64,000 nt of DNA from Hyphomonas atlantica corrig. (GTDB lineage Bacteria; Pseudomonadota; Alphaproteobacteria; Caulobacterales; Hyphomonadaceae), in NCBI RefSeq assembly GCF_000682715.1, contig NZ_AWFH01000001.1, forward strand, positions 496,001 to 560,000, given 5' to 3'. The notes under the pieces are model-generated. The model was not told the DNA's origin. It saw nothing but the letters and a program-made list of their open reading frames with translations, and searched no databases. Position numbers and translations under genes: made by a program. Of this stretch, positions 5,731 to 61,933 are shown piece by piece; within the stretch, counting starts at the first letter, position 1; each line of letters begins with the position of its first letter.

Positions 5731-6624
5731 ATGACCAATCCACAAATGGCCCGGCAGATTGCCGAGAAAAATGGCTTCATCGCAGCACTCGACCAATCCG
5801 GCGGTTCCACGCCCAAGGCGCTGCGGCTGTATGGTGTCAACGAAGACGCCTATTCCAATGATGAAGAGATGTTCTCGCTGATCCATGACATGCGCGCCCG
5901 CATCATCAAGGCGCCTGCTTTCAATGGCGAGAAAGTCATCGGCGCGATCCTCTTCGAACGCACGATGGATGGTGAAGTCGACGGAACGCCGACCGCTGAA
6001 TATCTCTGGAACGAACATCAGGTCGTCCCCTTCCTGAAGGTCGACAAGGGCCTCGCCGACGAGGCGAATGGCGTTCAACTGATGAAGCCGATGCCAGACC
6101 TCGACAGCCTGCTGGAGCGCGCTGTCTCAAAGGGCATCTTCGGCACCAAGATGCGCTCCGTCATCCATGCGGCCAACCCGGAAGGCATCGCCGCCATCGT
6201 TGCGCAGCAATTCGACGTGGGTCGCCAGATCTTGGGCCATGGCCTGATGCCGATCATCGAGCCGGAAGTCACGATCACCATCTCTGACAAGGCTGAAGCC
6301 GAAGACATCCTTCTGGCAGAGATCACCAAACAGCTCGACGCGCTCGGTGAAGACAAGCAGGTGATGCTGAAACTGTCCCTGCCGACCAAGGCGAACCAGT
6401 ACAAATCACTGGTCGAGCATCCGCGCGTGATGCGCGTTGTTGCCCTGTCAGGTGGGTATTCCCGCACCGACGCATGTGACAAGCTTTCCCAGAACACCGG
6501 CATGATCGCCAGCTTCTCCCGCGCCCTGACCGAAGGCCTCTCGGCACAGCAGAGCGACGAGGATTTCAACACGACGCTGGCCGCCACAATCGACAATATC
6601 TGCGCAGCCTCCGCAGCGGGCTGA
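5731..6624 (+). CDS. Class I fructose-bisphosphate aldolase
   Basis: Cleaves fructose 1,6-bisphosphate to two triose phosphates through a Schiff-base lysine. About 297 residues, as expected for the bacterial class I enzyme. Visible: IAALDQSGGSTPKALRLYG near the N-terminus, VVPFLKVDKGL, TKMRSVI, MPIIEPEV and LKLSLPTKANQY. The start MTNPQMARQIA at 5731 is preferred over an in-frame start at 5653, which would add a 26-residue extension not typical of the family. It is in series with gap and pgk and completes a lower-glycolysis block; a good terminator follows. Confidence 0.95.
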   Translation: MTNPQMARQIAEKNGFIAALDQSGGSTPKALRLYGVNEDAYSNDEEMFSLIHDMRARIIKAPAFNGEKVIGAILFERTMDGEVDGTPTAEYLWNEHQVVPFLKVDKGLADEANGVQLMKPMPDLDSLLERAVSKGIFGTKMRSVIHAANPEGIAAIVAQQFDVGRQILGHGLMPIIEPEVTITISDKAEAEDILLAEITKQLDALGEDKQVMLKLSLPTKANQYKSLVEHPRVMRVVALSGGYSRTDACDKLSQNTGMIASFSRALTEGLSAQQSDEDFNTTLAATIDNICAASAAG

Positions 6625-6646
6625 TCGCTGCAGACAGCTTGATGAG

Positions 6647-6673
6647 AAGGCGGCTCTCTGGGGCCGCCTTTTT
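6647..6673 (+). terminator. Rho-independent terminator after fba
   Basis: GGCGGC (6649-6654) and GCCGCC (6663-6668) form a six-base GC stem with an eight-base loop, followed by a five-T run. It separates aldolase from thiE. Confidence 0.8.
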
Positions 6674-6741
6674 CATTTGGCCGCCACATCACCGAGTCTG
6701 AGGACTTTCAGCAGATTGTCCGCTGCGCTATAGCGCGCGCC

Positions 6742-7422
6742 ATGAGCACACCTGAAGACTATGTCCGCCCGCGTACGCGGCTTTACCTGATCACCCCTCC
6801 CCGCATTGAGGATGTGGATGGCTTTGCCGCCCTGCTGGAAACTGCCCTCTCGGCGGGCGATGTGGCCTGTCTTCAGCTTCGCCTGAAGACCGAGGCCGGA
6901 GAAATAGACGAAGCCGCGACCCGCGAGGTCAGCGCTGCCGTGACGGCTATGGCACAGGCCTATGGCGCTGCCGTACTGATCAATGACAGCCCTCAGCTCG
7001 CCGTGGAACTAGGCGCGGACGGCGTGCATGTCGGCCTGGACGATGTGCCGGTGCAAACGGCGCGGGAGATCGTCGGCAAGGATATGATCGTCGGCGCCAC
7101 CGCCAAGAATTCCCGCCACGCGGCCATGCAGGCCAGCGAAGCCGGCGCGGACTATGTCGCGTTTGGCGCGTTCTTCGCCACCGGCACGAAAGATGACACG
7201 GTGGAGGCGTCGCCAGACCTGCTGGAGATCTGGCAGGAAAGCATGGAAGTGCCCTGCGTCGCGATTGGCGGAATTACCGTCGAGAACGCCGAGCCGCTTG
7301 TCATGGCCGGCGCAGACTTCCTCGCCGTGTCCTCCGGCGTGTGGAACCACCCGGCCGGTGCTCCGGCCGCGGTGGCAGAGTTCAATGCATTGCTGGATCG
7401 ACTGGATCCATCCGCAAACTAG
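6742..7422 (+). CDS. thiE: Thiamine-phosphate synthase (ThiE family)
   Basis: TIM-barrel enzyme family joining HMP pyrophosphate and thiazole phosphate to thiamine monophosphate. The protein is 226 residues with ThiE landmarks: LYLITPP, the pyrophosphate-binding LQLRLK (usually QLREK), LINDSPQLA, ADGVHVGLDD, GATAKNSRH, the FFATGTK loop and VAIGGI. The QLRLK and GATAKNSRH variants differ from the textbook enzyme, so the substrate could be somewhat different. No TPP riboswitch is seen in the short upstream gap. It overlaps the convergent membrane-protein gene by four bases, sharing a CTAG in which each strand reads TAG. Confidence 0.85.
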   Translation: MSTPEDYVRPRTRLYLITPPRIEDVDGFAALLETALSAGDVACLQLRLKTEAGEIDEAATREVSAAVTAMAQAYGAAVLINDSPQLAVELGADGVHVGLDDVPVQTAREIVGKDMIVGATAKNSRHAAMQASEAGADYVAFGAFFATGTKDDTVEASPDLLEIWQESMEVPCVAIGGITVENAEPLVMAGADFLAVSSGVWNHPAGAPAAVAEFNALLDRLDPSAN

Positions 7423-7745
7423 AAGTCTGACGAAGCCGGGCTTGCCGCAGGCGGCGTCGGGCCGGACTTCATTTCCTTGAGTTCGCGGACATCGTCGCTG
7501 ATGCGGAAGAACAGCATGTAGAGCTCGCACATGAAGCGCCAGAACAGCAGGCTGATTGCGCCACCGATGATCGCCGCGATGACGATACCTATGCCGCCGA
7601 GGAAGCTCTGGCTGACCATGACACCGAGCCCCGTCAAAAGCATGATGATAGCGTAAAGCCCAATCCCCACGAGGCCGATATAGTAGAGTATCTTGATCAG
7701 CGTCGTGCCGATCAGCTTGTCAAAAGTAAGCAGGCGTTGAATCAT
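7419..7745 (-). CDS. DUF4282 small membrane protein
   Basis: Protein of 108 residues with two transmembrane helices (about residues 15-38 and 45-67) and a short cytoplasmic tail ending in a Pro/Ala/Ser-rich segment. The pattern of an N-terminal LLTFDKLIG, two helices and [24 protein letters not shown] matches the DUF4282 family. The start at 7745 is preferred because a GGGGGAC purine run lies upstream; a longer frame reaching 7868 would add an unlikely 41-residue leader. Function unknown for the family. Confidence 0.8.
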
Positions 7746-7936
7746 TTTGTGTCCCCCATATTCCAGTGGAAATGGCATTCTGCTCACGATTGCAGCCATC
7801 TGTGAATAGAGGTCGGGGCAAGGAGGGCCGGATTTGTTGCCCAGCCTGCTTGGCAGGCGCATTAACACACCCCGGCTTGACCGTTTCCAGCCTAGGGCTT
7901 ACGCCCCCGCCAAACCTTCAAAAGGACACGCCTCCC

Positions 7937-8503
7937 ATGGTCAAGATCAATGGCAACGAAATCAAGCCGGGCAACGTCATCGAGCATGACGGCAGCGTCT
8001 GGCGCGCCCTGAAGACGGCTTCAGTCAAGCCAGGCAAGGGCGGCGCATTCAATCAGGTCGAGCTGCGCAACCTGTTGAACGGGTCCAAATCCAATGTTCG
8101 CTTCCGCTCATCCGAGACCGTCGAGAAGGTCCGCCTGGAGCAGAAAGACCACCAATTCCTGTTCGCAGACGATGACTCCTTCACCTTCATGGATCAGGAG
8201 AATTTCGAGCAGATCATGATCCCGCGGGATTTCATCGGTGATCAGGGCGCTTTCCTGCAGGACGGCATGGTTGTCGAGATCGAGTTCTATGGCGAGAAGC
8301 CGATTGGCGTGTCCCTGCCCGAGCAGGTCATCCTCGAAGTCGAGGAAACCGAGCCGGTCGTGAAAGGCCAGACTGCTGCAAACAGCTTCAAGCCAGCCAG
8401 CTGCACCGGCGGTGTCCGCATCATGGTTCCGCCCTTTGTCGGCACCGGCGAGAAAATCGTCGTCCAGACCGCCGATTCCACTTATCTCCGCCGCGCAGAC
8501 TAA
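7937..8503 (+). CDS. efp: Translation elongation factor P
   Basis: Relieves ribosome stalling at polyproline stretches. The protein is 188 residues, with the KOW-like N-terminal domain and two OB domains. The loop KPGKGGAF carries Lys34, the residue beta-lysylated in EF-P proteins that use the EpmA/EpmB pathway; those enzymes are not in the window. The C-terminal signature [21 protein letters not shown] is intact. The ATG at 7937 follows AAAGGACACG; a longer frame from 7766 is rejected because the family starts at MVKI. It is nine bases upstream of the inositol monophosphatase-family gene, suggesting one operon. Confidence 0.97.
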
Positions 8504-8511
8504 GGTCAGAC

Positions 8512-9330
8512 ATGTCCAAGCCCTCCCCCGTCGGCACCGTAATGATCGCAGCCGCTCGCGCAGCGGGTCGCTCCCTCGCGCGTGATTTCGGCGAAGTCGA
8601 AAACCTGCAGGTCTCAAAGAAGGGCCCGGCTGATTTCGTCTCGAACGCAGATCATCGCGCCGAAGAGATCATCTACAATTCCCTCACCAAGGCGCGGCCA
8701 GGCTATGGCTTCGTCATGGAAGAACGGGGCATTGTCGAGGGCACGGACAAGTCCAACAAATTCATCGTTGACCCGCTCGACGGCACGCTGAACTTCCTGC
8801 ACGGGCAACCGCACTATGCCGTTTCCATCGCGCTGGAACGTGAGGGCAAGCTGCTGACAGGCGTCGTCTATGATGTCGCCAAGAATGAGATCTTCTGGGC
8901 CGAAACCGGTCGCGGTGCCTGGCTGGAGAACCGCAAGCTGCGCGTTGCCGCTCGGACCAAGCTGCATGAAGCGGTCGTTGCCACCGGCACGCCCTGGCAT
9001 GGCAAGGCCGAAGAGAAACACACGCATTTCGCCCGCGAGATGCTGGCCATGACCCCAGCCTGCGCCGGTATTCGTCGCTATGGGTCGGCGGCGCTGGACC
9101 TGGCCTATGTTGCCGCTGGCCGGTTCGATGGTTTCTGGGAACGCGGCCTGCAGCCCTGGGACATTGCAGCCGGAATCGTGCTGGTTCGGGAAGCTGGCGG
9201 CACGATCACAGAGATTGATGGCGGAGATGTGATGCAGACCGGATCCCTGCTCGCAGCGAATGAAGACCTGCACCCGCTGATCGAAAAGCAATTGCGCCAC
9301 GCCGCTGCATTTGCCCGCAAGGCAGACTAG
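8512..9330 (+). CDS. Inositol monophosphatase family protein (SuhB-like)
   Basis: Mg2+-dependent phosphatase family of 272 residues. Metal-binding motifs: the Glu in GFVMEERG, FIVDPLDGTLNFLHG (the DPLDGT signature) and the C-terminal LQPWDIAAGIVLVREAGG. Family members dephosphorylate inositol 1-phosphate or related sugar phosphates; E. coli SuhB also acts in ribosomal RNA antitermination. The gene starts nine bases after efp, so co-expression with translation functions is plausible. Substrate cannot be fixed from sequence. Confidence 0.93.
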   Translation: MSKPSPVGTVMIAAARAAGRSLARDFGEVENLQVSKKGPADFVSNADHRAEEIIYNSLTKARPGYGFVMEERGIVEGTDKSNKFIVDPLDGTLNFLHGQPHYAVSIALEREGKLLTGVVYDVAKNEIFWAETGRGAWLENRKLRVAARTKLHEAVVATGTPWHGKAEEKHTHFAREMLAMTPACAGIRRYGSAALDLAYVAAGRFDGFWERGLQPWDIAAGIVLVREAGGTITEIDGGDVMQTGSLLAANEDLHPLIEKQLRHAAAFARKAD

Positions 9331-14191: not shown

Positions 14192-14295
14192 CTGTTGATC
14201 CCACCATATCTGAATGTCGCGGCAGGACCGACGGATTAACCACCACTTAACCCGTCCAAGCGAGCGTGCCCTCCAATTCCAAGGAGGCACAAAGC

Positions 14296-43169: not shown

Positions 43170-43685
43170 TTAAAGATCCTGCCGAGCCATATCCAGTATC
43201 AGTACGTTTCGTATTCCCTCCGGAACCTCATTCTGTAGGTTCGTGAGAATCATGGCTCGAAGCGTTTCATAATTGTCGACGTCAGTAATCGAATTGAGCG
43301 TGCGACCACCACTGCTCAACTTGACCAGTGTCGTCATGATGTTGTCTCGCAAGACCGGCTCTTTCGAGAACAGTTCCTGAGAGATCGACGTATCGACTTC
43401 GAGATTGAGGTTCAGGATTACGAGACTCTGCACACGATCATTTTCGATCATTGGCACGACAAACTCACGCGAAAACTTGTAGTAAGTGACTTCCGAACCG
43501 TCGGATTTCCCGTGCTTGTCTGCTTTGCCGTGAGCCTTCTTTTCCTTCTTCGGCTCCGCATGCTTATCGTCTTTATGGGCAGCCGCAGCCGGCTTTGCAT
43601 CTGAACCTGATGTCAGGAAATGCGCCGTTCCCCCACCCGCAACAATGGCCAGCAACGCAACGATGGACGGAACTATCTGTTTCAT
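43170..43685 (-). CDS. fliL: FliL-family flagellar basal body protein
   Basis: Single-pass protein of 171 residues: helix at residues 5-25, then a His/Lys-rich linker (residues 35-65) and a C-terminal FliL-like domain with REFVVPMIENDRVQSLVILNLNLEVD. FliL surrounds the stator and supports torque. This copy follows flgH; a second FliL-like gene is at 60321-60821, with different sequence. The two may act at different places, or one may have another role. Confidence 0.85.
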   Translation of the reverse strand: MKQIVPSIVALLAIVAGGGTAHFLTSGSDAKPAAAAHKDDKHAEPKKEKKAHGKADKHGKSDGSEVTYYKFSREFVVPMIENDRVQSLVILNLNLEVDTSISQELFSKEPVLRDNIMTTLVKLSSGGRTLNSITDVDNYETLRAMILTNLQNEVPEGIRNVLILDMARQDL

Positions 43686-43694
43686 GGCGTCTTC

Positions 43695-44399
43695 CTAGAA
43701 CGGGATAACCCGGTCGAGCACTTTCTGCCCTACCCTTTGTTGCGGAACGGATGTTGCGTCACCTGTATTCAGATAAGAAATCTGGGCTTCCGCGATTTTC
43801 TCGTAGGACACCGTATTTGTCCGTGTAATGTCCTGTGCGCGAATTACACCGCTGACGGTCAGCATTCTCAACTCATTGCTGACCCGGGTTTGCTGGTAGC
43901 CCTGAATGACCAGGTTTCCATTCGGTTCCATTGCAACGACACGTGCCGCCAATGTGAAAGCAATACTCTCGGCCCGGTTCATCGCCCCGCTGCCATCGAG
44001 AGATGAACCACGGCTATAGTCTACACCAGGAGACAGGGAAGCCCCGCCGGGCAGCACACCATTTGCCCACTCTGGCAGGCCGAACAGGGCATCGACATTC
44101 ATATCCGCACTGCTATTCCGATTTCTCGATAGCGAACTTTGGAGACTTGCCCGGTCATCCATTTCTACAACAACTGTCAAAAGATCGCCGACAGCCTTTG
44201 CCCGACGCATGCTCAGCAAGGCATTTGGAGACGTCGTCCAGAGGGACGCATCATCCGCACCTACCGGTTCAGCGACGGGCTGATGCACCATCGGCACAAC
44301 CGTGGGTGTCGTCATGTCGAACTCCGCGTCTGCGGAAGGGATCGAAGCACAGGCGGTAACGCTGAGGGCCGCCGCAGTCAGAGTGAATGTAATCTTCAT
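43695..44399 (-). CDS. flgH: Flagellar L-ring protein FlgH
   Basis: Outer-membrane L-ring lipoprotein of 234 residues. Lipobox VTACAS near residue 17; GDLLTVVVEMDDRASLQSS and the C-terminal LTVSGVIRAQDITRTNTVSYEKIAEAQISYLNTG are the FlgH signatures. The ATG at 44399 overlaps the flgA stop (ATGA), so the frame start at 44414 is not used. Confidence 0.96.
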   Translation of the reverse strand: MKITFTLTAAALSVTACASIPSADAEFDMTTPTVVPMVHQPVAEPVGADDASLWTTSPNALLSMRRAKAVGDLLTVVVEMDDRASLQSSLSRNRNSSADMNVDALFGLPEWANGVLPGGASLSPGVDYSRGSSLDGSGAMNRAESIAFTLAARVVAMEPNGNLVIQGYQQTRVSNELRMLTVSGVIRAQDITRTNTVSYEKIAEAQISYLNTGDATSVPQQRVGQKVLDRVIPF

Positions 44400-44803
44400 T
44401 GAACAAGTACCCATCCGTCTGATTGCACGATTCCGCTTACGATCTTCTTCGAGTTGAGGTTCAGAATGGAAACGCTGTCTCCTTCTGTCGCCTCGCTCAT
44501 GGCTCGTCCCGTGGTAGTGATCTCCAGCGCACCGCTGACGAACTTTACCGTCACGACCTGATTACGCCGCACCAATCGCGCGGGCTGGGTATCGTCCAGG
44601 CTGAGCTCTTGTCCGACATAGACAGTACGCCGAACTTCGCGGCCAATAAGTGGATTATCCGATGACACCATACTGCCGGTTTCAGTAGAGATGTTCGCAG
44701 CAGTGACGGTGTCCCCTGCCCGTATCACTTCAGTCGCGACAGAAGCTGACGCCCCCATCATGTGCGCAGCAAGCCCGAGGCCCAATGCTATTGCTGGTAT
44801 CAT
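44396..44803 (-). CDS. flgA: Flagellar basal body P-ring chaperone FlgA
   Basis: Periplasmic P-ring assembly chaperone of 135 residues, short form typical of alphaproteobacteria. The signal peptide spans residues 1-20; GREVRRTVYVGQELSLDD and RRNQVVTVKFVSGALEITTTGRAMSEATEGDSVSILN are FlgA SAF-domain features. Four bases separate it from flgG. Confidence 0.94.
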   Translation of the reverse strand: MIPAIALGLGLAAHMMGASASVATEVIRAGDTVTAANISTETGSMVSSDNPLIGREVRRTVYVGQELSLDDTQPARLVRRNQVVTVKFVSGALEITTTGRAMSEATEGDSVSILNLNSKKIVSGIVQSDGWVLVQ

Positions 44804-44807
44804 TCTG

Positions 44808-45593
44808 TTACCTCAACCTTGTTGTCGCCGCGAGCATTTCGTCGGCGGCTGTGATCACTTTGGAGTTCAGCTCATATCCGCGCTGAGCCTCGATGAGCTC
44901 AGAAATTTCCTGAACCACATCTACACCAGATTCCTCCAGGTAGCCTTGTCGAATCAGGCCCATACCCTCCGTACCCGCGACCAATTGGTTTGGTGGACCC
45001 GATGCCTCTGTCTGTCGAAACATGTTGTCACCCATCGCCTCAAGACCTTTTTCGTTGATGAAACGAACCAACGAAATATTGCCTATAGGCTGACCATCAG
45101 ACTCACCATCAAAGTATGCGACCACTTCCCCATCGCGACTGATGGATATGCTGCGCGCCTCTTCCGGAATGACAATTCCATCTGCGAGCGGGAATCCATC
45201 CATCGTTACGATCTCCCCGTCCGGACTGCGGTTCAGCTTACCATCGCGTGTATAGGCGGACTCGCCAGACGGCAGCGTAACCTCAAAGAATCCTGTACCG
45301 TCGATCGCAAGGTCCAGCTCTGAGCTGGTTTCCCGAAGGCCGCCTTGAGTAATCTCCATTGACACTGAGGATGGCTTCACGCCTGTGCCGAGCTGAATAC
45401 CTGCGGGCACGACCGTTCCCACTTGGGATGTGATTGTCCCCGGGGTCAAATGCTGTTGATACATGAGATCCGAAAATTCAGCCGTACGCGGTCGATAAGC
45501 AGCCGTGCTCATATTGGCAATGTTGTTGGAGATCACCTCCACTCGCAATTGCTGAGCGGCCATCCCTGTCGCGGCGATTTGCAATGATTTCAT
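44808..45593 (-). CDS. flgG: Flagellar distal rod protein FlgG
   Basis: Distal rod protein of 261 residues. The N-terminal ATGMAAQQLRVEVISNNIANMSTAAYR and C-terminal ISELIEAQRGYELNSKVITAADEML are the rod/hook family ends; EEVTLPSGE...AYTRDGKLNR in the middle fits FlgG. 26-base gap from flgF. Confidence 0.97.
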   Translation of the reverse strand: MKSLQIAATGMAAQQLRVEVISNNIANMSTAAYRPRTAEFSDLMYQQHLTPGTITSQVGTVVPAGIQLGTGVKPSSVSMEITQGGLRETSSELDLAIDGTGFFEVTLPSGESAYTRDGKLNRSPDGEIVTMDGFPLADGIVIPEEARSISISRDGEVVAYFDGESDGQPIGNISLVRFINEKGLEAMGDNMFRQTEASGPPNQLVAGTEGMGLIRQGYLEESGVDVVQEISELIEAQRGYELNSKVITAADEMLAATTRLR

Positions 45594-45619: not shown

Positions 45620-46333
45620 CTAGAGCTGCCGCATTGTCTTGATCAGTTGATTGATCCGCTCGTCTTCTTTTTCGATCAGGCTTTGCCCCGCCTCGTAAGC
45701 GCGCTGGACTTCAATCAGTCTCGAAATCTCGAGAATCGAAGACACATTGGATTGTTCCAATGCACCTTGAATTACATTTGGCTCTTCGACCTGCTCATAG
45801 CCCTCAGCGGCCACAAACATGGTACCGCCCTCTTGAGCGATCTGTCCGTTCGCAGTTACCACACCGATCTGACCCAAAATTTCCTGGCCTGACGAAATAG
45901 TTCCGTCGGGCGCAACGGAGATGCGTGTAACCTCTTCGGGAATAGCAATGGCTCCGCCGCCAGCGCCCATGACCTGATTACCAAAAGCATCGGCGAGAAT
46001 TCCGTCCGCGGAAAGTTGGAACGCCCCTGCACGCGTAAGCCGCTCACCTGCTGGAGTCTCCAGGACAAAGAACCCCTCGCCATGAATCGCTAGATCGAAC
46101 TGTCCGCCGGTATGCTTCATCGCTCCTTGTGACAGATCGTGCGAATGGCCCGACAAGCTACCCATGGAGACGCTGTCGCCTTCTCCATTTACCGCAGCAA
46201 TATGCTCGGCAAAGATGGCGTGATTCGATTTGTAACCAGTTGTGCTGGAGTTTGCGACATTGTTCGCGATAACCTGCATTTCTCGAAGCAGACCGTCTTG
46301 GCGCGTCAAGGTGGCATAAATTGCATTGGACAC
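45620..46333 (-). CDS. flgF: Flagellar proximal rod protein FlgF
   Basis: Rod protein of 237 residues. MQVIANNVANSSTTGYKSNHAIF and SRLIEVQRAYEAGQSLIEKEDERINQLI are intact. Initiates with GTG, preceded by a strong GGAGGT ribosome-binding site, and overlaps the stop of the upstream 573-residue protein by one base (TAGTG). Confidence 0.96.
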   Translation of the reverse strand: MSNAIYATLTRQDGLLREMQVIANNVANSSTTGYKSNHAIFAEHIAAVNGEGDSVSMGSLSGHSHDLSQGAMKHTGGQFDLAIHGEGFFVLETPAGERLTRAGAFQLSADGILADAFGNQVMGAGGGAIAIPEEVTRISVAPDGTISSGQEILGQIGVVTANGQIAQEGGTMFVAAEGYEQVEEPNVIQGALEQSNVSSILEISRLIEVQRAYEAGQSLIEKEDERINQLIKTMRQL

Positions 46334-48054
46334 TAGAGAGCACCTCCAATTGTCGAATCAAGGAGCTGACTGATCAGCTGAAGATTCTCCGGAATTTCGT
46401 TCAGATGGATCTTTCGTGAACCCGTGGCTGAACCTCGCGCCCGCAGAGCAAGCACAGCTTGAGCGCGTGCTATGTACTGTTCGTCCGCGATCTGTTCAGC
46501 AGCGACATAGAAGTTCTCTGGCAGAACCCAGTCGCCATACACCGCATCGCATTCGATGAGATCCACGAGAGTCGCTGCGTCGAGAGAGACTTTGGAAACC
46601 AGAGTCTGAAGCCACATCGTGTCCCGCGCCATGATTGCGCTCATCGCGGCTAGTCGGGTCACGTCAGTATTATTCGGGTCTGTTCCGGACAGATTCCGAA
46701 GTGCTGTCACGTCAAACATCCGGAACGCCATTTCCGCGCGTTTCGAGGCCAGATCATCATCCTGTTTGATATCGTTGGCGAACTCATTCACCACATTCAC
46801 CAGACCGAGATCCGCAGCGACGATAGTGGCAGACTTTAGCACTTCTGCTGCCTCGTCGCTCTCTCCCAACAGATCGCGATTCAGGAATGTCGCACTCATT
46901 GCGGCAACCTTGAAAAAATGGTCGTCCTTTGAAAAGTCCGCCTCCAGCCTTCTCACCAATTGCGCGCTGAGAAGTTGTCTCGTCTCCGGTTCCTGAAGCG
47001 TCGGCAGGGACGCCAGTCGTGAGATCGTTTCGTAATCCGTGATTTCAGCAGGACGATCCAGCATAGCCCGCAAGTTCGTACGGATGTTCTGGCCGTCCGG
47101 CATGCGCTGCACATTCTCGACAATGTTGCCGACCACTTCATTCTGGACTTCGGTTTCGACGGGAAATCCATGCTTCAACAAAGCAGCCGCCGCAACCGAC
47201 CTCAGATCAGAGTTTCTCAGGAATGGTCGTAAGCCCTCATCCGCAACCAGTCCGCCCTTGTACATGTCAAGAATGGCCTGGTTCAGCGACAAGCGCGGCG
47301 AGCGCGCAATCTGTTCCGCAGTGAAATCCGCCATCATTTTCTCGGCCAGCAAGGGCTCCCCCATCTGGTCCAGAGCGGGCACAGCCATCGCAGCGAAGCG
47401 TATCTTAAGATACCAAGGTAGTTTTCTGTAGAGAGTCAGACTGGCATTCAGCTGTGAGACCCCGTCCGGATCGAGCATCGTGACCTTCGCCAAAGATTGC
47501 CAGATTGCCGCCGAAGGGTTGCACTCCGCGGCCTGATTGAGTGCGTCGATCCGAGTGACCCGCCCCTCTTCCAGAAAATGAGAGAAGTCTCGGAGCAGTT
47601 CAGCATTCTGTCCTTCAAGATCAGCGAGTTGAAGCCGGGCTTCAGCAAACAACCCAATCGTGATGTAGGCCATCGCCATCTCGATTGGGTGTATAGACTC
47701 CTGATCCGAAAGCTTCTGCGCTCGCCAATGCAAGAAGTCCTCATAGCTGCTCAGGCTTATGTACGGCGCGAAATCCAGTTCAGTTTCAGCAGTACATCCT
47801 GTCGACATGGGAACGGGGCGGCTGGGCTCTGCGCTATCCAGGCGCCCCCGGAACACCGGCGTCGCCTGCGGGTTGGAGCCGGCCGGCGCGAGCAATCCTT
47901 CATCAATCGCGTCGTCAACGAACTGGCGAAAATGCTCTGACAGTTGATCTGCTTCCGCCACAGGCACGCCAGTTTCACCTGAAATCTCCCCAAGTGCGGG
48001 CATGCTCATCACGACGGATAAGCCGACAACAAGAGGGAGACGAGAACGGGTCAC
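46333..48054 (-). CDS. Exported 573-aa helical protein, candidate MotC counterpart
   Basis: Signal peptide at residues 1-22 (VVGLSVVMSMPALG), then a long soluble protein rich in helix-forming Ala/Leu/Glu segments that look like irregular helical repeats. Three Cys residues (near residues 87, 178 and 508) could form disulfides in the periplasm. The start GTG overlaps the motA stop by four bases (GTGA), and its stop overlaps flgF by one base, so it is translated in a coupled way with stator and rod genes. No family recognised from sequence; the location, periplasmic destination and a separate MotE gene suggest a MotC-like motor protein. Inference only. Confidence 0.85.
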   Translation of the reverse strand: MTRSRLPLVVGLSVVMSMPALGEISGETGVPVAEADQLSEHFRQFVDDAIDEGLLAPAGSNPQATPVFRGRLDSAEPSRPVPMSTGCTAETELDFAPYISLSSYEDFLHWRAQKLSDQESIHPIEMAMAYITIGLFAEARLQLADLEGQNAELLRDFSHFLEEGRVTRIDALNQAAECNPSAAIWQSLAKVTMLDPDGVSQLNASLTLYRKLPWYLKIRFAAMAVPALDQMGEPLLAEKMMADFTAEQIARSPRLSLNQAILDMYKGGLVADEGLRPFLRNSDLRSVAAAALLKHGFPVETEVQNEVVGNIVENVQRMPDGQNIRTNLRAMLDRPAEITDYETISRLASLPTLQEPETRQLLSAQLVRRLEADFSKDDHFFKVAAMSATFLNRDLLGESDEAAEVLKSATIVAADLGLVNVVNEFANDIKQDDDLASKRAEMAFRMFDVTALRNLSGTDPNNTDVTRLAAMSAIMARDTMWLQTLVSKVSLDAATLVDLIECDAVYGDWVLPENFYVAAEQIADEQYIARAQAVLALRARGSATGSRKIHLNEIPENLQLISQLLDSTIGGAL

Positions 48055-48917
48055 GCGGCTTGTTTCAACCCCCGGATCGCTTCTTCGACTTCATTGAAAG
48101 AAGGGCGCACACGGGTGGGTGCATGGCGTCGCGCCACCTCAACACAAATGTTCACCGGATTTTTGTGAAGGTTTGACACCAGAACTTCGCCGATCATCGA
48201 ATAGAAATTGTGCTCCTCAAGCCGGATATGTTTCACCCGGGTCGCGAAAGGGCCAACAATTCCATAGGCGAGAAACACGCCAAGGAACGTACCAACAAGC
48301 GCGCCGCCGATCATGCCGCCAAGAACTTCAGGGGGTTTGTCAATCGATGCCATTGTCTTGATCACACCCAGAACAGCCGCAACAATGCCGAGTGCAGGCA
48401 GTGCATCCGCCATGTTCTGCAATGCGTGGGATCCGTGAAGTTTTTCCTCAATCAGGCTTTCAAGCTGCTTTTCGAGAAGCTCCTCAACCTGATGAACGTT
48501 GTCGAAATTCATGATCATTGAGCGAATGGTATCGCAGATCATTTCAATCGCCCGCTTGTCCTTCAGGATTTTCGGGTAACGCGCAAAGATATCTGAATCT
48601 TGAGGAGCTTCGATATGAGCTTCGATGTCGACCGGGTTCTTTTTGAGAACATTCAATAGCTCGTGCATCAGGCAGAGGAGATCCTGATAGTCGGATTTTT
48701 TCCATTTTGGGCCTGAGAACGCAGCGACAATATCGCCCCCTGCGTGTTTGATCGTAGTCAAATCATTGCCGGCGAGGAATGCGCCCGTAGCGGCGCCACC
48801 AATCATCATCATCTCGAAGGGGAGAGAATGCATGATAATATCGAGGTGCCCCCCAGCCAGCATGTAGCCGCCGAAGACCATCACGACTGTGACGACAAGT
48901 CCTGCTATTGCGTTCAC
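48051..48917 (-). CDS. motA: Flagellar motor stator protein MotA
   Basis: Ion-channel subunit of the stator; 288 residues with four transmembrane helices (residues 2-22, 32-50, 175-195, 205-225). The cytoplasmic loop and the GGMIGGALVGTFLGVFLAYGIVGPFA segment match proton-type MotA. Initiates with GTG after a strong AAGGAG site. motB is not next to it but in the divergent operon at 50049. Confidence 0.96.
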   Translation of the reverse strand: MNAIAGLVVTVVMVFGGYMLAGGHLDIIMHSLPFEMMMIGGAATGAFLAGNDLTTIKHAGGDIVAAFSGPKWKKSDYQDLLCLMHELLNVLKKNPVDIEAHIEAPQDSDIFARYPKILKDKRAIEMICDTIRSMIMNFDNVHQVEELLEKQLESLIEEKLHGSHALQNMADALPALGIVAAVLGVIKTMASIDKPPEVLGGMIGGALVGTFLGVFLAYGIVGPFATRVKHIRLEEHNFYSMIGEVLVSNLHKNPVNICVEVARRHAPTRVRPSFNEVEEAIRGLKQAA

Positions 48918-48959: not shown

Positions 48960-49889
48960 TCAAATCTCGGCAATTTCTCGAATGACATCCTCGGGCACGG
49001 GTGCCTTCAGCTTCAAGGCTCTCTGCCCTTTCCAGGCGCCAAGTTCCCCTTGGCTGATCGGCAGTGATCCGCTCACCGTACCGGCGCTCAGATCAAGTTT
49101 GTCCATCTTCGCGCCCGGCAGTGAGATGACTTGCCCGATTTTCATCTCGGCGCACTCACCAATAGTCATGCGCATGGAATCCAGCACTGCATCCAGCACG
49201 ACTGACGTATGCCGAACGCGCTCCCGCAGAACACCTCGTCCCGTATCATCCTGTGACTTGGGTCTGGCCGCATTCTCTTGAAAGGCCTTGGCAAGTGACT
49301 TGATTGCGGACAACCGAACTATCACTCCAATTTCCGGAGCGGCAGTTTCGCCTTCAATAAGCCAACTGTCCTCGCCGTCTCCATCTCCCAATTTGTAGGT
49401 CAGGTTGATGTAAGTTGTATCGGCGTCGAATGGCTCTGCTGCACGGGCAATATCGATCAATTGCGCCGGAGCATTGGCATCACTATCGCTGGAGATAGAA
49501 CAGGCCATTCTTTTCCAAAGGGCGCGCGCAGCGCTCTCCGCCATCAGACGAAGAAACAATTCAGGGGCATTGTTCAGGCTAGACGCGCCCTGTCGCAAAC
49601 GCTGAGCAGAATATCTCTGGGCACCCGCGAAGTTGATTGTCACCGCAGCAACAGGTCCAACATTATGCTCAGGGCTTACATAAGTGAACACGTCATGGGC
49701 CGCGCTCGGCAGATCGGCCCCTGCGAAAACCTTGCGAGAAATAAGGTCCGGCGTGGAAACCTGACCGTAAACTTCTTGTGTCCATTGACCAATGGAAGAC
49801 GCCAAGGCGAGCCAAAGGGGTTCGCATTGGCGAATCGTTGGAGGGAGTCCTCCCCCTGCCCCGATCTTCTTTCGCAGCACAGACGACAC
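48960..49889 (-). CDS. fliM: Flagellar motor switch protein FliM (divergent)
   Basis: C-ring protein of 309 residues with a C-terminal SpoA/FliN-like domain (residues ~225-305: VVLDAVLDSMRMTIGECAEMKIGQVISLPG). The middle region matches the FliM fold loosely. The N-terminal CheY-binding helix (LSQxEIDALL in classical FliM) is not seen; the protein begins MSSVLRKKIGAGGG. Starts with GTG and lacks a strong ribosome-binding site. First gene of the motA-flgFGAH operon. Confidence 0.8.
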   Translation of the reverse strand: MSSVLRKKIGAGGGLPPTIRQCEPLWLALASSIGQWTQEVYGQVSTPDLISRKVFAGADLPSAAHDVFTYVSPEHNVGPVAAVTINFAGAQRYSAQRLRQGASSLNNAPELFLRLMAESAARALWKRMACSISSDSDANAPAQLIDIARAAEPFDADTTYINLTYKLGDGDGEDSWLIEGETAAPEIGVIVRLSAIKSLAKAFQENAARPKSQDDTGRGVLRERVRHTSVVLDAVLDSMRMTIGECAEMKIGQVISLPGAKMDKLDLSAGTVSGSLPISQGELGAWKGQRALKLKAPVPEDVIREIAEI

Positions 49890-50048
49890 AACAAGCCTAC
49901 ATATTTACCCAGTTCCGTCTGGTAGGAATTAAGTAATTTGGTTGCTGAATGGTTACTACGACCGTCTGAAACCCTGCGCCCAGATTAGCCATGAATTGAT
50001 TCAAGCCTGTTAGGAGTAGTGTTCCAAAGCACCGGGGCAGGACTGATT

Positions 50049-50903
50049 ATGGTCGATAAAGCATCGACAGACGCGCAACCAATCATCATCAAGCGCAAGA
50101 AAGTGGTTCAGGGCGACGGCCATCATGGCGGCGCCTGGAAAGTTGCTTATGCTGACTTCGTGACTGCGATGATGGCGTTCTTCCTGCTCATGTGGTTGCT
50201 CAATGCAACCACGGAGGAACAACGCAAGGGCATCGCCGACTATTTCAACCCGACCATTCCGGTGAGCCGGATTTCTGGCGGTGGGTCTGATGGCCTGAAT
50301 GGCTCTTCAATGTTTACCGAGGACACCTACGCCAAAATGGGAACGGGCGGCACGCGCGATGTAACGATTGACACGCCAAAGAAGGAAGCCAGCGCCGCTG
50401 CGGCAGATGCTAGTGCCGAGGAAGTCGCCGAAAACCTTCAAAATCTGCGGGCCGAATTGAATGAGGATGCCAAACAGCTTTCTGAGCACCTCATGATAAA
50501 AATGTCTCCCGAAGGGATGGTTCTCGAAATCATCGATTCCGACAGTTCACCCCTGTTTATGGTTGGCAGTAGCAATCCGACCCCTCTTCTCCAGGATTTG
50601 CTGACATCGATATCAGGATCTCTCGATGCATTTCGAAACGACATCAAGATTGTCGGGCATACTGATAGCCTCCAATATCGACTGGATGCCAATTACGACA
50701 ACTGGAACTTGTCGACTGATCGCGCCAACATGATCCGTAAGCTCCTGCTGGAAAAGGGCATGAGGCCTTCTCGCCTCAAGGAAGTTTCCGGTCGCGCTGA
50801 CACAGACCCACTGGCTCCAGACGATCCGTCTGCATCCCAGAACCGTCGAATCTCAATCGTGATCCTGACAAATCAGCCGAACAAAGATGAACTCAGATTG
50901 TAG
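50049..50903 (+). CDS. motB: Flagellar motor stator protein MotB
   Basis: Peptidoglycan-anchored stator subunit; 284 residues. A single N-terminal helix holds the proton-carrying Asp in WKVAYADFVTAMMAFFLLMWLL. The C-terminal OmpA-like domain has IVGHTDSLQYR and LSTDRANMIRKLLLEKG, then GRADTDPLAPDDPSASQNRRISIVI. The ATG at 50049 follows a GGGGCAGGA ribosome-binding region. First gene of the motB-flgE-flgK-flgL-flgI run. Confidence 0.96.
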   Translation: MVDKASTDAQPIIIKRKKVVQGDGHHGGAWKVAYADFVTAMMAFFLLMWLLNATTEEQRKGIADYFNPTIPVSRISGGGSDGLNGSSMFTEDTYAKMGTGGTRDVTIDTPKKEASAAAADASAEEVAENLQNLRAELNEDAKQLSEHLMIKMSPEGMVLEIIDSDSSPLFMVGSSNPTPLLQDLLTSISGSLDAFRNDIKIVGHTDSLQYRLDANYDNWNLSTDRANMIRKLLLEKGMRPSRLKEVSGRADTDPLAPDDPSASQNRRISIVILTNQPNKDELRL

Positions 50904-60825: not shown

Positions 60826-61326
60826 ATGCCCTTCGAGATCTCCGACATCGCCCTGTTTCTGGTTTCCTTTGCAGCATGCCTTTACTGCGCGCTGCTCAGC
60901 CGTCGGCTGAAAGCGCTTCAGAACACTAAGAACGGCCTTGGCGCCACGATCCGGGCAATGTCGGATTCTGTCGCCGCTGTCTCATCTGCGCGGCACGAAA
61001 CGCAAGCTCAGGCCGGTGACCTGGCCAACCGGCTCGCCGCGACGATGAAAGAGGCTCAGGAAACTGCGGAAAAGCTGAAAGAGCTAAAGACGGCGATGGA
61101 AGTGAAAGATCGCGAACTGTCACGTCGCATCCAAGCGGCCGATGCCGACATTCGCAGCACATTGCGAGAAACACTTGAAGCGTCATCTGGCAAGATCACT
61201 GAAATCACACGGCTGACGAAACGGCTCGAAGCTATCGCTGATCGCACGTCGGCACGCTTCGACAGCGCAGACTACCTTTTCGATGAAGAACAAATGAGCA
61301 AGTCCAAACGGGTTTACGAGGGTTGA
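60826..61326 (+). CDS. DUF6468 coiled-coil membrane protein
   Basis: Protein of 166 residues with one N-terminal helix (residues 5-24) and a long coiled coil (residues 50-150) ending in a conserved RFDSADYLFDEEQMSKS tail. The DUF6468 family is found in flagellar clusters of alphaproteobacteria. GAGGTAA sits before the ATG. Between fliL and motE; it may help stator or export assembly. Function not established. Confidence 0.8.
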   Translation: MPFEISDIALFLVSFAACLYCALLSRRLKALQNTKNGLGATIRAMSDSVAAVSSARHETQAQAGDLANRLAATMKEAQETAEKLKELKTAMEVKDRELSRRIQAADADIRSTLRETLEASSGKITEITRLTKRLEAIADRTSARFDSADYLFDEEQMSKSKRVYEG

Positions 61327-61330
61327 AGGA

Positions 61331-61933
61331 ATGAACAGCAAAGGCCGCACTCACGTCCTTCTCACCATTGGCGTCCTGTTCACGATTGCAGGTGGCACAC
61401 GCTGGCTGCCGCAGGCTTTCGCGACGACGGACCGCGCCTCGACCGTGAACGACCCGCTCAAGGCGCTCCCGCAGGCCATGACTGTTGATGAATCTGATCG
61501 CGTCCAGAATGTCTGCCTGACGGGCGACCTTGCCGCCGCGATGGAGCAGGATCAGAAGGACATAGAGCAACGCATCTCCGATTTGAGACAAGACGAGATT
61601 GAACTGCGTAATCGCAAGCTCGAACTTGCCCAGCAGGCCGAGGATCTCAAGCAGATTCAGGAGCAGCTGGACACCCGTTGGCAGAAAATGTCTGATACCG
61701 CCAATCAGGACTTGCACCATCTGGCCCAAATGTATGCAGCCATGAAACCTGATCAGGCTGCCGGTATCTTCGATCAGATGGACGCTGGCTTTGCGGCTGG
61801 CTTTCTGCGCCTCATACCAAGCGATCAGGCGGGTCTGATCCTGGCCAATATGGATAATGAAAAGGCCTATATCGTCAGCGTGAAAATCGCTGCGAAGAAT
61901 AGCGATCTACGATCGGATTCGATCGCCCCCTAG
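61331..61933 (+). CDS. motE: MotE-family flagellar motor chaperone-like protein
   Basis: Protein of 200 residues: an N-terminal signal or anchor (residues 8-28), a coiled coil (70-125), and a C-terminal domain LAQMYAAMKPDQAAGIFDQMDAGFAAGFLRLI that matches the MgtE/FliG-like MotE module. In Sinorhizobium MotE is a periplasmic chaperone for MotC, which interacts with MotB. This gene lies in the same flagellar region as the 573-residue exported protein. GAAGGA precedes the ATG. Last gene in the fliL-DUF6468-motE run. Confidence 0.85.
   Translation: MNSKGRTHVLLTIGVLFTIAGGTRWLPQAFATTDRASTVNDPLKALPQAMTVDESDRVQNVCLTGDLAAAMEQDQKDIEQRISDLRQDEIELRNRKLELAQQAEDLKQIQEQLDTRWQKMSDTANQDLHHLAQMYAAMKPDQAAGIFDQMDAGFAAGFLRLIPSDQAGLILANMDNEKAYIVSVKIAAKNSDLRSDSIAP

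Follow-up and report, generated by a model that had tools for sequence, protein, structure and literature searches.

MotK of Cereibacter sphaeroides, reported in 2024, is a periplasmic protein of 652 amino acids that is needed for flagellar rotation and not for assembly of the filament (PMC10954123). Its gene follows motA in the Fla2 operon, fliL-pflI-motE-motA-motK, and mutants of motK and of motE are flagellated and non-swimming. The protein binds MotE and, more weakly, MotB2, and its localization requires MotA2/MotB2. An AMIN-like domain was the feature by which the authors of that work recognized distant homologs, and in their model MotK possibly anchors MotE and MotB to the peptidoglycan by way of this domain (PMC10954123).

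The window analyzed here is the whole stretch of 64,000 nucleotides from Hyphomonas atlantica. The gene under study, referred to as X, lies in it between motA and flgF, and was identified together with the following flagellar genes:

43170..43685, minus strand: fliL (PF03748, 2.5e-6)
43695..44414, minus strand: flgH (ORF list, locus comparison)
44396..44803, minus strand: flgA (ORF list, locus comparison)
44808..45593, minus strand: flgG (ORF list, locus comparison)
45620..46333, minus strand: flgF, overlapping X by 1 base
46333..48054, minus strand: X, a predicted exported protein of 573 amino acids, read here as an AMIN-less variant of MotK (ORF; homologs in family genomes; profile match to MotK)
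48051..48917, minus strand: motA, overlapping X by 4 bases
48960..49889, minus strand: fliM-like gene upstream of motA and co-directional with it (FliMN_C; Pfam PF01052, 2.2e-8)
50019..50903, plus strand: motB, with plug and OmpA (peptidoglycan-binding) domains (PF13677, 5.5e-20; PF00691, 3.3e-12)
60826..61326, plus strand: pflI-like gene (DUF6468, 5.9e-5, under the family cut-off)
61331..61933, plus strand: motE, MgtE_N-like, predicted partner of X (PF03448, 9.2e-5, just under the Pfam cut-off; co-occurrence)

Gene X and Its Homologs in the Same Family

An earlier note on this DNA had described an exported product of 573 amino acids between motA and flgF, with a 4-base overlap (GTGA) at the motA junction and a 1-base overlap (TAGTG) at the flgF junction. 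The open reading frame and both junctions were found to be exactly so, with GTG as the start codon of X. Hydropathy analysis also agreed with the signal peptide proposed in that note: the hydrophobic windows of the N-terminus fall within residues 4–26, resembling a Sec signal peptide, and no convincing transmembrane segment was seen by hydropathy after it, the Kyte-Doolittle value otherwise exceeding 1.2 only at residues 403–426 (maximum 1.37). The motE gene, placed about 13 kb away by the note, was indeed found 13.3 kb from X (61331–61933, plus strand), adjoining the pflI-like gene on its 3′ side.

When 105 genomes of the same family were searched, 66 proved to have a homolog of X, with identities of 21–48% and no internal stop in any of the 66, and as each has an open frame X can be taken as a real gene. 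The named loci carrying such homologs are mostly of Henriciella and Hyphomonas. The gene order fliM-motA-X-flgF-flgG-flgA and the 4-base overlap of motA and X were both present in all 19 loci examined, while the junction of X and flgF, with starts chosen mechanically, shares 1 base in 17 of these loci and 4 bases in one, the two genes abutting in the other.

A window-wide search for TTAA-N7-TTAA, which we take to be a CtrA-type motif, gave one exact site only, at 14236–14250 upstream of an ORF at 14266 (0.05 expected by chance), and no full motif was found near the X operon.

The Gene Position After motA

According to the earlier note, X stands in a position that is not that of any standard flagellar protein. 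This was mistaken, MotK being a known flagellar protein whose gene follows motA. On a plasmid of Paroceanicella profunda the order is fliL-pflI-motE-motA-[hypothetical protein of 883 amino acids]-flgF-flgG-flgA-flgH-fliL, the gene after motA overlapping it by 4 bases. The window has the same order from motA through fliL. On plasmids of Roseomonas and Rhodovastum, too, the gene between motA and flgF encodes a large protein that looks exported. In five plasmids of Roseobacteraceae (Marinovum, Salipiger, Sulfitobacter, Roseivivax, and Loktanella) motA is not directly followed by a large gene. The large genes after motA on three plasmids of acetic acid bacteria (Komagataeibacter, Acetobacter, and Aristophania) were considered as MotK-like and rejected, as by eye their products are Ser/Thr-rich and FliK-like instead.

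Two annotations of motK-like genes deserve comment. In NZ_CP115855.1 (positions 5899–9152 of the locus retrieved) the gene appears to shift reading frame, its annotation being divided between a short hypothetical protein and an over-long flgF, which appears to reflect a sequencing error or a pseudogene. In NZ_OW485602.1 (positions 5842–8271 of the locus) the annotated start (6499) appears to lie too far downstream, an open-frame start resembling that of a signal peptide being present next to motA.

To assemble a MotK set, a search was started from the Paroceanicella protein, and 136 of 199 genomes of another alphaproteobacterial family matched. The resulting alignment comprised 32 rows, Paroceanicella and 31 others, the C. 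sphaeroides MotK sequence not being among them, and the open frames collected range from 719 to 977 amino acids. All 31 non-Paroceanicella genes directly follow motA on the same strand, and motE was found further upstream in nine of them, where the fetched DNA extended that far. The downstream gene in these 31 loci (L130–L158, L125, and L126) is flhA, and not flgF, in 27 and was not recognized in four. Since flhA takes this place in 27 of the rows, only the motA side of the MotK position is general.

Homology of X to MotK

Searches with X alone were uninformative. No family of Pfam or NCBIfam was matched at E-values up to 10, with MotX/MotY and FlgT, named for comparison in the earlier note, among the families sought; there was likewise no match to solved structures by sequence, none in a first single-protein scan of genome contigs, and none in the plasmid collection by tblastn. 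With the 30-row alignment of X homologs the best E-value against the PDB was 0.14, so that neither X nor its profile convincingly matched a solved chain by sequence. TPR_19 was weakly matched in 8 of the 30 homologs (best 5.5e-4) and not by X itself, which fits the helix-rich stretches described in the note. The thiL family was hit in two of the 30 (best 4.7e-5), and this and other single hits appear chance-like. Using hmmsearch, the X profile did not significantly match one MotK (E 0.13), one MotC, or 16 CC_2058-like proteins.

In profile–profile comparison the X profile (30 rows) matched the MotK profile (32 rows) with P=9e-14 and a score of 122.6, against 21.8 for reversed MotK, at most 18.7 for five column shuffles and at most 24.7 for 100 further shuffles. 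None of 11 further families encoded in the same operons exceeded 21.5 against MotK, and a TPR-annotated protein scored 24.1 (P=0.046) against the X profile. The following features of X were defined from these alignments and from hydropathy:

47989..48054, minus strand: predicted Sec signal peptide, about residues 1–22 (hydropathy; cleavage point predicted)
47884..47943, minus strand: conserved predicted helix, residues 38–57, LSEHFRQFVDDAIDEGLLAP (alignments)
46459..47805, minus strand: region aligned to MotK, residues 84–532 (hhalign, 421 columns, 18% identity)
47794..47796, minus strand: Cys87 (joint alignment)
47521..47523, minus strand: Cys178 (joint alignment)

Residues 84–532 align with residues 333–777 of the MotK homolog of locus L130, and direct identity between X and MotK within residues 84–300 averages 18.6%, with a maximum of 22%. 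When 81 sequences were aligned jointly, Glu138 and Pro213 had a counterpart in every one, whereas Cys87 and Cys178 each had one in 80, the Azospirillum row appearing to be the exception. Each cysteine is found in 30 of 30 X homologs, 14 of 14 intermediates (described below), 2 of 2 long forms, 32 of 32 MotK rows, and 2 of 3 Acetobacteraceae/Azospirillum rows, and the two may form a disulfide.

Intermediate and Long Forms in the Same Order

Extension of the X profile search to the whole order gave matches in 69 of 298 genomes, of which 16 belong to two other families. At 14 of these 16 loci a protein of 595–673 amino acids without an AMIN-like domain, here termed an intermediate, is encoded between motA and flgF. 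The intermediates match the X family over the full length (P=3.3e-37, 575 columns) and MotK up to its C-terminal end (P=2.3e-32, 546 columns), compared with P=0.11 for reversed MotK, and one of them (L186) has motE in the same gene run, pflI-motE-motA-X-flgF. Two long forms with open frames of 764 and 777 amino acids (L184 and L187) occupy the same place in pflI-motE-motA-[protein]-flgF. These match MotK with the N-terminal region included (P=3.1e-44 over 663 columns), X with P=4.4e-10, and the CC_2058-like set barely (P=0.01). Forms with and without the N-terminal domain therefore coexist in one order.

Absence of the AMIN-like Domain

The conserved predicted helix of X, LSEHFRQFVDDAIDEGLLAP, is the counterpart of the MotK helix that comes after the AMIN-like domain and linker. 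The first shared helix is preceded by 41–46 residues in all 30 X rows and by 175–415 in the 32 MotK rows, and the signal peptide of X now stands almost directly before it. The region absent from X is the part of MotK that its authors modeled as an AMIN domain (PMC10954123). The missing domain is not encoded directly upstream of X in the window, because motA overlaps the X start codon. Pfam did not recognize an AMIN domain even in the 883-amino-acid Paroceanicella protein, and the absence from X is for this reason based on length and alignment. Judged in this way, what X retains of MotK is the portion that follows the AMIN-like domain and linker, and the alternative raised in the earlier note, an undescribed motor component, no longer applies, MotK having been published in 2024 (PMC10954123). 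As long forms survive in the same order, loss of the domain in the X lineage is the likeliest history, and X is classed here as an AMIN-less variant by descent and not as a standard MotK, because the N-terminal domain is absent.

Co-occurrence with MotE and Two Kinds of Flagellar Cluster

Among the 105 family genomes surveyed, X was found in 66 and fliF in 90 (89 above its cut-off). The MotE matches are separated by a wide gap, with 64 genomes having E-values no higher than 2e-40 and 19 having values no lower than 7e-7, the split being drawn by us. X is present in all 64 genomes with a strong MotE match and in none of the 26 other fliF-positive genomes. The two X-positive genomes without MotE are also without fliF and have a completeness of 84 and 87%, and 13 of the 105 genomes have neither X nor fliF.

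Loci were obtained for 16 of the 19 weak-MotE genomes (L083–L098), and all encode a protein of 1025–1220 amino acids near the MotE match, directly after motE in the 12 loci where a motE frame was labeled. These proteins are called CC_2058-like from their position and the MotK paper, the CC_2058 sequence itself not being in the set. Two kinds of flagellar cluster thus occur within the family: the X type (the window and L031–L049), with X after motA and a weaker-scoring fliF, and the type in which a CC_2058-like protein is encoded near motE.

The X-type cluster groups in a FlgG tree with Paroceanicella (100/99) and not with its family mates, a placement that carries a long-branch warning; a FlgH tree neither confirmed this grouping nor settled the origin of the cluster. 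Three contigs labeled as Acidobacteria MAGs (L042, L046, and L047) were seen in the FlgG tree to bear flagellar loci nearly identical to those of Hyphomonas MAGs and are probably misbinned.

The CC_2058-like proteins match MotK (P=8.3e-18), the Acetobacteraceae/Azospirillum proteins (P=2.1e-27), and the intermediates (P=8.6e-12) by profile, and X directly with P=0.025 only. In the MotK paper no BLAST similarity was reported between motK and the Caulobacteraceae genes, the fold being relied on instead (PMC10954123), and the profile link found here (P=8e-18; L083–L098, L100, and L130–L158) extends beyond that result.

Proposed Role of X and Alternative Explanations

The reading favored here, with a probability of about 0.88, is that X is an AMIN-less variant of MotK that probably serves as a periplasmic scaffold, linked to MotE, for the recruitment or activation of MotA/MotB stators. 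Its homology to MotK, its place after motA, its co-occurrence with MotE, and its missing N-terminal domain are shown by the comparisons above, and X is best read as a periplasmic protein that works with MotE in the motor, a role supported by the homology to MotK. Counting against this reading are the low direct identity to MotK, the nonsignificant hmmsearch result, the missing AMIN-like domain, the presence of flhA and not flgF downstream in the MotK set, and the 13 kb that separate X from motE in the window. By analogy with C. sphaeroides MotK, X would be exported by the Sec route and would then associate with MotE at the base of the motor, where MotE probably forms an E-ring around the MS-ring. 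X would touch the periplasmic part of MotB and in this way recruit or open MotA/MotB stator units. Given the loss of its own wall-binding domain, X may be held in place by the MotE ring and by the OmpA-bearing MotB.

It is conceivable that X is a MotK homolog with another task, for example in rod or P-ring assembly with flgF, flgG, flgA, and flgH and not in stator work, and its overlap with flgF as well as motA and the loss of the AMIN-like domain would suit such a change. We consider this improbable, as X keeps the post-motA place of a protein needed for rotation and not for filament assembly, co-occurs strictly with MotE, and has core residues in common with MotK.

Somewhat less probable again is that X is a true MotC, the rhizobial lineage having moved into the position between motA and flgF. 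The general outline is the same, with a signal peptide, no AMIN domain, and a MotE encoded in the genome. Homology of MotC and MotK despite their divergence has been proposed from structural considerations in a 2026 review (PMC13023049), and a combined MotK/CC_2058-like profile matched MotC faintly (P=0.006, against 0.23 when reversed). However, a profile of seven MotC rows (S. meliloti, locus L107, and six relatives) matched neither X (P=0.12), the intermediates (P=0.13), nor MotK (P=0.14), compared with P=9e-14 for X and MotK, and the MotC gene follows motB and precedes fliK/motD whereas X follows motA. The earlier note had proposed a periplasmic motor protein in the MotC role, and of this the role is supported, by the homology to MotK, while the profile comparison with MotC that it suggested and the gene order both speak against identity with MotC itself.

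An unrelated helical-repeat protein, present in this position by chance and resembling MotK only as repeats resemble one another, is the least probable explanation and largely refuted, for although some X homologs have weak TPR matches and helical repeats can give chance profile matches, the TPR-annotated protein (24.1, P=0.046) and reversed MotK (21.8) score far below X with MotK (122.6), the intermediates provide a full-length bridge, and the Cys, Glu, and Pro residues are position-specific.

With X read as an AMIN-less MotK, the existence of such a clade makes the published anchoring model testable, anchoring being either dispensable or supplied by MotB and MotE, and it suggests that a grip on the wall is not essential to the job of MotK. 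X thus has a MotC-like outline within the MotK family. More tentatively, and at somewhat less than even odds, MotK, the CC_2058-like proteins, X, and rhizobial MotC may all descend from one ancestral MotE partner, the wall-binding domain having been lost at least two times, in which case the essential part would be the arm linking the MotE ring to the stator and not the grip on the wall. Hyphomonas neptunium is listed as a species whose motor has been imaged by cryo-tomography (PMC11870540), and X might for this reason be placed in an existing map. The main text of the MotK paper does not contain Hyphomon-, Henriciella, or Maricaul- (PMC10954123), and X may be listed in a supplementary table.

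Comparison with Known Systems

The partners of the E-ring protein in Campylobacter/Helicobacter (PflA) and Borrelia (FlcB) have been described as rich in TPRs (PMC13023049), and from that description they may be likened to X. MotC of Sinorhizobium meliloti is, like X, exported, without a known AMIN domain, and linked to MotE in that species, but it has 434 amino acids, its gene stands after motB, and its sequence has no detectable similarity to X (P=0.12). The CC_2058-like proteins of Caulobacter-type clusters are homologous to MotK and to the intermediates; unlike X, they are linked to motE and do not follow motA, are twice as long at 1025–1220 amino acids, and have the conserved cysteine pair in none of 16 sequences. 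Closest to X is MotK, which shares with it a gene position directly behind motA in motE-bearing flagellar clusters, the signal peptide, the homologous C-terminal region, and both cysteines, and which differs in being longer, X at 573 amino acids being without the N-terminal AMIN-like domain and linker.
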